From Dehalococcoidia bacterium (GTDB taxonomy: Bacteria > Chloroflexota > Dehalococcoidia > Lucifugimonadales > Lucifugimonadaceae), in the NCBI GenBank assembly GCA_026421185.1, contig JAPKCH010000002.1, positions 1 through 64,000 on the forward strand: a DNA stretch of 64,000 bases, in the 5' to 3' direction. The translations under genes were made by a program, and so were the position numbers. This document shows, one piece after another, positions 20,534 through 31,645 of the stretch. Positions within the stretch are counted from its first letter, which is position 1; every line of letters starts with the position of its first letter. The notes below the pieces were generated by a model. The model did no database searches and had not been told where the DNA came from. It worked only from the letters and a program-made list of their open reading frames with translations.

Positions 20534-20562
20534 TTGACGTGCCCCCCTCACATTCATAGAAT
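20534..20562 (+). promoter_or_regulatory. Sigma-70-type promoter of groESL
   Basis: TTGACG (20534-20539), a 17-base spacer and TAGAAT (20557-20562) differ from consensus by one base in each hexamer. The expected start of transcription, about 20569, falls exactly at the first CIRCE half-site. Confidence 0.75.
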
Positions 20563-20569
20563 TCTATGG

Positions 20570-20619
20570 CTGGCACTCTAAGCCCGCGACTGCTAACAGT
20601 CGGCAAGGTCGAGTGCTAA
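20570..20619 (+). promoter_or_regulatory. Two overlapping CIRCE operators (HrcA sites)
   Basis: CIRCE is TTAGCACTC-N9-GAGTGCTAA. Site 1: CTGGCACTC (20570-20578), N9, GACTGCTAA (20588-20596), 15 of 18 matches. Site 2: CTAACAGTC (20593-20601), N9, GAGTGCTAA (20611-20619), 15 of 18. The sites share the four bases CTAA and have centres 23 bp apart. Repression of groESL by HrcA is expected. No hrcA is in the window. Confidence 0.75.
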
Positions 20620-20721
20620 TCATGAAAACGGTACGATTTGAACTTGATTCGGTGCCTCCGCACTCTTAATTCAATTTTGAAAAACCGTTTTCTCACGTGA
20701 CAACTAAGGAGAAAAAACTCA

Positions 20722-21018
20722 GTGGCACTGAACCTCACACCGCTTGGTGACAGGGTAATCATAGAACCTGCCGACGCAGAGGCTTCAACCTCTCCCGGCG
20801 GAATCATCATTCCTGACACAGCAAAAGAAAAGCCTCAACAGGGCTCTGTTGTAGCAGCCGGCCCAGGCCGAACAACCGACGAAGGCACCGTCATAGACAT
20901 GCCTGTTTCAGTCGGCCAGACCGTCATCTACTCTAAGTACGCAGGTACCGAGTACACAGAAGGCGGAGTTGACTACCTGATCGTTCGAGAGAGCGACATA
21001 CTCGCAATCGTTGGATAG
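20722..21018 (+). CDS. groES: Co-chaperonin GroES
   Basis: 98 residues, the normal length. Forms the heptameric lid of the GroEL chamber in the cytoplasm. The start [15 protein letters not shown], mobile loop [19 protein letters not shown] and YSKYAGTEY are standard. The start is GTG with AAGGAG upstream. It is followed 43 bases later by groEL. The leader between the operators and the GTG is about 100 bases and contains a 9-bp inverted repeat, GAAAACGGT / ACCGTTTTC (20624 and 20684), of unknown use. Confidence 0.97.
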
Positions 21019-21061: not shown

Positions 21062-22696
21062 ATGGCAGCAAAAGATCTAAAGTTCAGTGATGACGCTCGA
21101 TCACGCCTTAAAGAAGGCATCGACGTACTTGCTGATGTTTTAAAGTCGACTCTCGGCCCACGTGGTCGAAACGTTATCGTCGACAAAAAATTCGGCCCTC
21201 CGCAAGTCAACTCTGACGGTGTAACAATCGCCAAAGAGATCGACCTCGAAGATCCGTTTGCAAACATGGGTGCACAGCTTCTGAAGGAAGTCTCAAAGAA
21301 GACTAACGACGACGCTGGTGATGGCACGACCACCTCAACCGTTCTCGCTCAGGCAATTATTGCTGAAGGCTTCAAGAACGTGACAGCTGGTGCCGACCCA
21401 ATGGCAATCAAGCGCGGTATGGAAATAGCTATGGCTTCCATCCGTGAGTCGATCGCCTCACAGTCAACACCAGTTGACTCTAAGGAACAGATCGAAAGCG
21501 TAGCGATCCTTTCTTCCCATGACGACGAAATGGGTACACTCATTTCCGACGTTATGGACAAGGTTGGTAAAGACGGCGTTATTACCGTTGACGAATCGAA
21601 GTCTCTTTCATACGAGACCGAGTTCGTTGAAGGAATGCAGATCGACCGTGGCTATCTTTCGCCATACTTCGTGAACAACTCAGAAAAACAGGAATCGGTT
21701 TTAAACGACCCTTACGTTCTGATCACTTCACAGAAGATTTCTGCAATATCCGACCTTCTCCCTGTTCTTGAGAAGGTACTGCAGACCAACAAAAACATTC
21801 TTGTTATCGCAGAAGACGTTGAGGGCGAGGCTCTCGCTACTCTCGTTGTGAACAAGCTTCGTGGCACATTGAACGTCGCGGCCGTAAAGGCTCCTGGCTT
21901 CGGTGACCGCCGAAAGGCAATGCTCGAAGACATCGCAATTCTCACTGGCGGAACAGTCATTTCAGAAGAAATCGGTCGCAAACTCGACACGGTTACTCTT
22001 GATGACCTCGGCAAGTGCAAGCAGGTCGTCGTCAACAAGGACGAGACTACGTTTGTTGATGGTGCCGGTTCAGCTGACGCCCTCAAGGGTCGCAAGGCTG
22101 AAATTGAATCTCAGATCAGCGACACTTCATCCGACTACGACCGTGAGAAGCTCCAAGAGCGACTTGCTAAGTTGTCCGGCGGAGTCGCAATCTTGAAGGT
22201 TGGCGCAGCCACTGAAATCGAAATGAAAGAGAAGAAGCAGCGCATGGAAGATGCCCTTTCGGCTACCCGTGCTGCTGTTGAAGAAGGAATCGTTCCCGGC
22301 GGTGGAACAGTTCTAATTCGTGCTTCTGAAGGACTCAGTTCTGTGAATTCTGAGAACGGTGACGAGCAGACCGGCATTAACGTGCTGAAGAAAGCTCTAC
22401 TTGCACCTATCAGAGTAATCGCCGCAAACTCCGGTTTCGAAGGCGCTGTAATCCTTAGCAAGGTTGCCGACAACAAAGACAAAAACTTCGGTTTCGACGC
22501 TCACAAGGGCGAGTACGGCGACATGGTCAAGATGGGAATTGTTGACCCTGCCAAGGTAACTCGTGCTGCAGTTGAAAACGCTGTTTCTGTTGCTGGAATG
22601 ATCCTCACAACTGAGGCTCTGATCAGCGAGAAGGACGAGCCAATGATGCCACCTATGGGTGGTGGCGGCGCTCCTGGTGGAGACATGGGCTTCTAA
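21062..22696 (+). CDS. groEL: Chaperonin GroEL
   Basis: 544 residues. ATP-driven protein-folding chamber. The conserved N terminus [20 protein letters not shown], the ATP site in [20 protein letters not shown] and [14 protein letters not shown], and the flexible tail [12 protein letters not shown] are all present. GGAG precedes the ATG. It is co-transcribed with groES under the CIRCE promoter, and a strong terminator follows. Single copy in this window. Confidence 0.98.
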
Positions 22697-30481: not shown

Positions 30482-31402
30482 ATGAGGAAAAGCAAGTTGA
30501 AGATTCCGATAGACCAGATCTTTCCTGACCCCGATCTCCCTCGTACAAAGAAGCCCAACGGACGTCGTGAAAACACACGTTCAGTTCGCTCCAAGCGCGA
30601 TCCGGTTGTTCTGTCTACGGGCAACGGATACCTCCTTCTAGCAGGCGAGCGAAAGCTCACAGCCGCCAAAGAAGCTGGCGAAGTATCAGTCGAATGCACC
30701 GTCAAGGAAGAGGTAACTCCACAGGAACGATGGGAGCTCTCACTTGCTGAGCAATACCACTCTTCCCTCGTGCCGGCGATGCAACTCGGGCGCGCATTTA
30801 TGGAATACCGAGATAGCCATGAAGTCACCCAGCAAGAGCTCGCTCGCAGGACAGGAATTACTCCAGGAACCATCCACCATTACGAGAGTCTAATTCGCAC
30901 TCTTGACCCTGCTCTTGGTGAACGAGTAAACAGCGGGGAGCTCACATTTAAAGAAGCCCGTTCTATCGCTGATATTGAAGACCATGTGAGGCAGAGAGAA
31001 ATCGCCCAGCCATTCATCGACGGACGACTTTCTAGTGTGCATGTTGAGCGTATTGTTGGGCGTGCAAAAACTTCTGCGACTCTGTCGATCGAAGACATCA
31101 TAGAAGAGGTTGTAAATGGCAAAAGAGCACCTGATCGCGAGCCGGAACCAACAACTGTAATTAAGCCAGCTATTCCGGTCGAAGCCGACACTGCCCTAAT
31201 CGAAAATGCAGTGCTGAAAATCGCTGGCGAGCTCGACGCAATGCAGCTACAGGTGATTCCGGAATACCGTCGACTGAAGCTGATAAGCAGTCTTAGAATT
31301 CTCGACAGCCGGCTGAGGTCGGCACTAGCAAACCTTAACGGAGGTGTTGCAGGACGGCAGGCTATTCCACGACAGTACGCCCCTGGCAAGGTTTCGGTTT
31401 AG
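30482..31402 (+). CDS. ParB/Spo0J-like DNA-binding protein
   Basis: 306 residues. The N-terminal ParB/Srx-like domain contains PIDQIFPDPDLPR and LLLAGERKLTAAKEAG, a variant of the ParB GERRxRA box. The helix-turn-helix is VTQQELARRTGITPGTIHHYESLIR. The C-terminal half is alpha-helical, without the usual dimer motif I know. No ParA is adjacent, so it may be a regulator and not a partition protein. The GERK variant may change CTP binding. A hairpin TCTCGG-TGAATT-CCGAGA sits directly before the ATG. Confidence 0.7.
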   Translation: MRKSKLKIPIDQIFPDPDLPRTKKPNGRRENTRSVRSKRDPVVLSTGNGYLLLAGERKLTAAKEAGEVSVECTVKEEVTPQERWELSLAEQYHSSLVPAMQLGRAFMEYRDSHEVTQQELARRTGITPGTIHHYESLIRTLDPALGERVNSGELTFKEARSIADIEDHVRQREIAQPFIDGRLSSVHVERIVGRAKTSATLSIEDIIEEVVNGKRAPDREPEPTTVIKPAIPVEADTALIENAVLKIAGELDAMQLQVIPEYRRLKLISSLRILDSRLRSALANLNGGVAGRQAIPRQYAPGKVSV

Positions 31403-31410
31403 ACAACCGG

Positions 31411-31645
31411 ATTCCACCTGGAGCGTCGGCCATTCGGCAGGCGCGTGACATCCAGGTCGGGATGCCTAAGGCACTCAAAACTGAATATCGCGTAGAGACG
31501 ACTAGATGAAACGCTGAGGTTTGTGCGGACACACAAACCTCGAGCCGCCGACATACTTCATGGGTTCTGAAGCTGTTGGCATAGTCTCCGCTGCGAGCCC
31601 ATGTGCCCCTCCAATTACGCCTCCGGAGGGGCGCATTTCTTTAAC
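31411..31645 (+). ncRNA. Candidate structured non-coding RNA
   Basis: Four hairpins follow each other without coding potential. (1) ACCTGGA/TCCAGGT (31416 and 31451) encloses the inner stem GGCC-ATTC-GGC. (2) GAGGTTTGTG-CGGACA-CACAAACCTC (31516-31541). (3) GCCGACA...TGTTGGC encloses CTTCA/TGAAG (about 31546-31580). (4) The terminator at 31601. I cannot match it to 6S, tmRNA, RNase P or SRP RNA. It could instead be the 3' end of the ParB-like mRNA. Confidence 0.35.
31601..31642 (+). terminator. Rho-independent terminator
   Basis: ATGTGCCCCTCC pairs with GGAGGGGCGCAT (one G-U pair) around a 12-base loop, followed by TTCTTT. Ends the ParB-like transcript or the RNA candidate. Confidence 0.75.

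Follow-up and report, generated by a model that had tools for sequence, protein, structure and literature searches.

Overlapping CIRCE sites at the groESL promoter of a Dehalococcoidia bacterium as a probable double HrcA operator

The groESL operon of this Dehalococcoidia bacterium (GCA_026421185.1, contig JAPKCH010000002.1) lies within the 64,000-nucleotide stretch that we analysed, referred to here as the window, and its upstream region holds a promoter, two overlapping CIRCE-like elements and a leader that is predicted to fold. The features, in window coordinates, are as follows.

20534-20539, + strand: -35 hexamer TTGACG, read from the sequence and retained in genus relatives
20557-20562, + strand: -10 hexamer TAGAAT, 17-bp spacer to the -35, read from the sequence; TAGAAT or TAAAAT in most genus relatives
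20570-20596, + strand: CIRCE site 1, CTGGCACTC-N9-GACTGCTAA, putative primary operator (consensus search and relatives)
20593-20596, + strand: CTAA, common to sites 1 and 2 (sequence)
20593-20619, + strand: CIRCE site 2, CTAACAGTC-N9-GAGTGCTAA, inverted relative to site 1 (consensus search and relatives)
20624-20692, + strand: conserved leader RNA arm (GAAAACGGT...ACCGTTTTC), predicted fold with a genus mean z of -1.9
20647-20668, + strand: apical leader hairpin, loop CCUCCG here and UGUCCG in relatives (loop survey, covariation, hairpin model)
20706-20711, + strand: Shine-Dalgarno AAGGAG, read from the sequence, its core invariant among aligned relatives
20722-21018, + strand: groES, GTG start (NCBIfam match)
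21062-22696, + strand: groEL (NCBIfam match)

The original prediction described two 27-bp CIRCE-like elements with 9-base spacers, a CTAA overlap and 15 of 18 consensus positions matched in each, all of which the consensus search reproduces. Searching the 64-kb window for TTAGCACTC-N9-GAGTGCTAA with up to three mismatches returns exactly two matches, sites 1 and 2, each at 15/18; the chance expectation for matches in the window is 0.01, and two matches were reached in 0 of 100 shuffles. Across the whole genome (96.6% complete), nothing other than the groESL pair comes within two mismatches of a C/G-tolerant consensus, and a third match, with three mismatches, is at noise level, since a backwards control yields more. 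The genome-wide consensus scan found no CIRCE at the organism's own hrcA-dnaJ. The predicted TTGACG-N17-TAGAAT promoter, with the sites beginning at the transcription start, is likewise recovered: judged from the promoter position, the expected +1 of groESL is at about 20569, one base 5' of site 1.

With respect to their internal structure, each 27-bp site combines one canonical half (GCACTC) with one variant half (GACTGC). Site 2 read on the minus strand is TTAGCACTC-N9-GACTGTTAG, the same hybrid as site 1, so that two like sites face each other across CTAA. The site centres are indeed 23 bp apart as predicted, although this amounts to 2.19 helical turns (at 10.5 bp per turn) and not to the two turns that had been suggested, so that one centre is turned by about 70 degrees relative to the other. 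By the same arithmetic, the half-sites that abut, at a distance of 5 bp, stand at about 170 degrees to each other, on nearly opposite faces of the helix.

To place the variant half in its lineage, we compared the sequences upstream of groES in 69 family genomes and in 60 genomes of the order's other families. The usual half-site across the order is GCAGTC/GACTGC, and the palindrome TTAGCAGTC-N9-GACTGCTAA, which departs from textbook CIRCE by a single C/G swap in each arm, is the operator most often seen at groES in the other families (L247-L306) and also occurs at this gene in genus g2 of the family (L033-L040). Canonical CIRCE is present at some groES loci of the other families, and many loci show none. 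The apparent mismatches in the two sites are, on this comparison, a form of the half-site (GACTGC) that is conserved in the lineage, which leaves without support the proposal that one weakened site had been backed up by a second, site 1 matching the lineage consensus all but perfectly in 19/19 genus loci. The order-wide move to GCAGTC half-sites is a case of operator drift that can be compared with HrcA sequence. A single HrcA residue behind the GACTGC half-site was considered and dropped, as N-termini compared by eye gave no clean discriminator.

The presence of hrcA, proposed as a check, was confirmed in the genome, where the gene product scores over the curated cut-off of TIGR00331. Of the 69 family genomes that have a groES locus, 41 carry both the operator and hrcA, 23 carry neither and 5 are discordant (P = 3e-13, a value that is only nominal because the genomes are related and some are incomplete), with the small-genome genera g5, g6 and g10 having neither. 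The locus shows these marks of a CIRCE/HrcA operator: 9-bp inverted arms, a 9-bp spacer, a position at the promoter and start of a class I chaperone operon and hrcA in the genome.

Within the genus (g1; 19 loci), which consists of marine Chloroflexota and includes UBA1328, SI053_bin67 and Dive96_bin4.203 (Chloroflexota, one of them labelled Dehalococcoidia), site 1 shows 0-1 mismatches to the lineage consensus in 19/19 loci, and the same site is present in the sister genus g8 (7 loci). Site 2 can be recognised in all 19 genus loci, with 0-2 mismatches in 14 and 3-7 in five. Its erosion in about five loci indicates that it is not essential everywhere; in one locus its spacer is lengthened. Half-sites are 90-98% identical across the genus loci, compared to 75-76% for the spacers between them, and the second-best core lies exactly 23 bp from the primary one in all 19 (in one case tied with 27 bp). 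In g8, a core of at least 9/11 is found at the 23-bp offset in 4/7 loci, against a background of 0.2% for such a core. We observe no second site at 23 bp in genera g2, g3, g7, g9, g11 and g12, nor in the 60 groES leaders of the order's other families. Relatives conserving just one site had been named as evidence against the pair; both sites are kept in the genus, and conservation of a single site is encountered only beyond the genus and its sister genus. Most simply read, the tandem originated in an ancestor common to g1 and g8 and is gradually disappearing from some members, with site 2 apparently the later and less stable of the two sites.

Second groESL copies in some genus members (L019, L021, L022 and L023) are without CIRCE and apparently located behind another gene's end. 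Such second copies were considered as operator carriers and rejected, their upstream regions being without an operator.

The same geometry recurs in other bacteria. A scan of one genome per species with the pattern CASTC-N9-GASTG-N4-CASTC-N9-GASTG found at least 120 stretches with the 23-bp tandem in other species, almost all of them recognisable CIRCE pairs among the matches listed, from hosts that include, again among the matches listed, Oscillospirales, Eggerthellaceae, Acidimicrobiia, Dormibacterota, Alcanivorax, Vicinamibacterales and Chloroflexota. By tblastn, 91 of these at least 120 tandems are directly upstream of hrcA (44), groES (31) or groEL (16), and several of the other 29 listed precede, by eye, an Hsp20-like ORF. 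Some loci carry triplets, i.e., three sites at 23-bp steps, and mixed canonical and variant halves also occur beside hrcA and groES in other phyla. Furthermore, we took a census of close-pair spacing with the gap left free between 0 and 30, in which counts are per genome and related genomes are each counted. Actinomycetota centre distances are 23-24 bp (8 pairs), 33-36 bp (33) and 46-47 bp (15, at least some of them triplets), the commonest close-pair spacing in this phylum being about 35 bp, not 23, and close pairs in other Chloroflexota are at 23-24 bp in 10/20. The Bacillota (Ruminococcus phylum) census of 250 genomes was uninformative, with the seed genome alone matching. Searchable literature yielded no description of the 23-bp tandem, and nothing specific on CIRCE in Chloroflexota or SAR202.

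A different arrangement is seen in some other Chloroflexota (G992, G1040, G1055, G1071, G1072, G1095, G1096 and G1142), where two CIRCE-like sites are 44-48 bp apart; in several cases they overlap a TTGACA-like -35 and thereby flank the promoter.

The usual view of CIRCE is of a single palindrome to which one HrcA dimer binds. For the groESL element of the window, a pair of overlapping HrcA operators is the best reading, and one that we consider probable: the predicted double operator is sustained by the presence of hrcA, the retention of both sites in the genus and the occurrence of the geometry in other phyla, its weakened-site variant excepted. From these comparisons we infer HrcA binding, double occupancy and an effect on repression. 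The two sites would cover the first ~50 transcribed bases of groESL. With GroEL free, HrcA dimers would occupy both sites side by side, and since the abutting arms are about 170 degrees apart, they could come together at the CTAA overlap, reaching it from nearly opposite helix faces; bound HrcA next to the start would then block RNA polymerase. The feedback of GroEL on HrcA, with release once GroEL is titrated, is an established mechanism in Bacillus and is carried over here: unfolded proteins would titrate GroEL, HrcA would become inactive and the operon would be released. Site 1 would be the older, indispensable operator and site 2 an addition by the ancestor common with g8 that probably served to tighten repression or steepen the response; tighter or graded repression through the double site is plausible. 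Side-by-side packing is a model, because a PDB sequence search found 1STZ as the only HrcA structure and none of HrcA with DNA. The recurrence of a fixed 23-bp tandem in several phyla, in some cases as a triplet, suggests that such packing of HrcA dimers is possible, and cultured relatives of the other lineages would allow a direct test of cooperative or graded repression of chaperones.

Three other explanations deserve attention. It may be that only site 1 operates in vivo and that site 2, as a weak accessory or the relic of a duplication, is scarcely occupied by HrcA, which we regard as unlikely. The near invariance of site 1, compared to a site 2 that is eroded in about five of 19 loci and has a longer spacer in one, would fit such a situation, as would the other genera of the order, which repress with one site, and Myxococcus xanthus, where HrcA is reported to bind just one of the two groESL1 CIRCE elements (PMC9040617), so that a second CIRCE may not bind. 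However, the half-sites of site 2 are conserved well above the spacers, the 23-bp offset is retained in 19/19 loci and in g8, and the same tandem recurs in other phyla. We find it improbable that the long palindrome is kept as an mRNA hairpin at the 5' end, acting in stability or translation, instead of as a second DNA operator. A fold of the transcript across both sites is indeed predicted, and mRNA hairpins formed by CIRCE are under discussion for Bacillus, but the two spacers pair no better with each other than shuffled ones do (mean z -0.37), spacer swaps between species are not clearly worse (P = 0.06), and other tandem-bearing lineages show no pairing excess. A selected RNA hairpin in the operator palindrome is thus unsupported by the shuffle and swap tests, and the symmetry of the palindrome is accounted for by the operators.

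Finally, the inner halves read GACTG/CAGTC and not GAGTG/CACTC, and could in principle be the site of another regulator with partial likeness to CIRCE. This is very improbable considering that other genera and families have a perfect TTAGCAGTC-N9-GACTGCTAA in this very position upstream of groES, that the operator tracks hrcA within the family and that mixed canonical and variant halves are found beside hrcA and groES in other phyla.

Downstream of the double operator, the stretch from site 2 to the Shine-Dalgarno folds into an arm in the leaders of the genus, with a mean z of -1.9 in 19 related sequences. An RNA thermometer, which would hide the Shine-Dalgarno in a weak stem, was considered for this conserved arm; the arm stops at 20692, before AAGGAG at 20706-20711, and the minimum-energy fold predicts only weak pairing of the Shine-Dalgarno. 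In 50 family leaders outside the genus, UGUCCG closed by a stem of at least 3 pairs ranks first of 4096 hexamer loops, and the hairpin is found in 7/7 leaders of g8 and 2/3 of g6 with differing stem sequences. Its stem is 89% paired with a covariation of 0.725 versus 0.26 in shuffles, and it covaries across three genera, one of which, g6, is without hrcA and CIRCE. Outside the family, one weak case was found among 60 groES leaders, and no Rfam match was found for the arm.

In many family genomes, the leader hairpin model has another match near groESL, located on the opposite strand, which in the window lies 11 kb away in an intergenic stretch.

~31475-31636, - strand: candidate structured noncoding RNA with three hairpins (hairpin model, covariation across genera)
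31514-31543, - strand: UGUCCG hairpin of the candidate RNA (match to the leader hairpin model)

The UGUCCG hairpin is the most conserved part of this candidate RNA: in g1, g5, g6, g8 and g11, UGUCCG is invariant and the flanking GUG/CAC nearly so, and the stem below the tip covaries (92% paired, 0.586 versus 0.18). Since the sequences behind both models were picked for the loop, its invariance partly reflects that choice, which does not apply to the stem covariation. A longer model finds one strong copy in 19/19 genus genomes and in g5, g6, g8 and g11, and only weak matches elsewhere in the order. The candidate RNA matches no Rfam family, and no tRNA or tmRNA is present in the 64-kb window. 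Every genus with the leader hairpin has the candidate RNA, and the converse fails (g5, g11). In g5, the first hairpin abuts the end of the upstream gene, and the candidate RNA may therefore be part of a 3'UTR. Beside the candidate RNA, and convergent with it, the window encodes a ParB/Noc-like protein (30482-31402, + strand) whose matches are below the curated cut-offs.

The hairpin common to leader and candidate RNA is a lead separate from the operator, and it hints that a well-studied chaperone operon may also be subject to an RNA layer. Tentatively, groESL could be under two layers, the double HrcA operator and the UGUCCG leader hairpin, with leader and candidate RNA perhaps sharing some partner for which the RNA would act as decoy or sensor.

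Compared to the classical CIRCE/HrcA system (TTAGCACTC-N9-GAGTGCTAA), the element described here has the same 9-bp arms, 9-bp spacer and position at the groESL start, together with hrcA in the genome, and differs in having two overlapping copies with one arm each of the order-typical GACTGC variant. More than one CIRCE per chaperone promoter is a trait it shares with M. xanthus groESL1 (PMC9040617) and with Lactococcus lactis dnaK, for which a promoter with two CIRCE elements has been described (PMC1676014), while the 4-bp overlap and 23-bp register are not described for L. lactis (PMC1676014) or M. xanthus (PMC9040617) in the accessible parts of those reports. A further likeness is with the tandems of Eggerthellaceae, Oscillospirales, Acidimicrobiia, Dormibacterota and other groups, which are sited upstream of hrcA, groES, groEL or an apparent hsp20 and have the same 23-bp spacing and 4-bp sharing; their arms are mostly canonical, whereas here one arm per site is the GACTGC variant.
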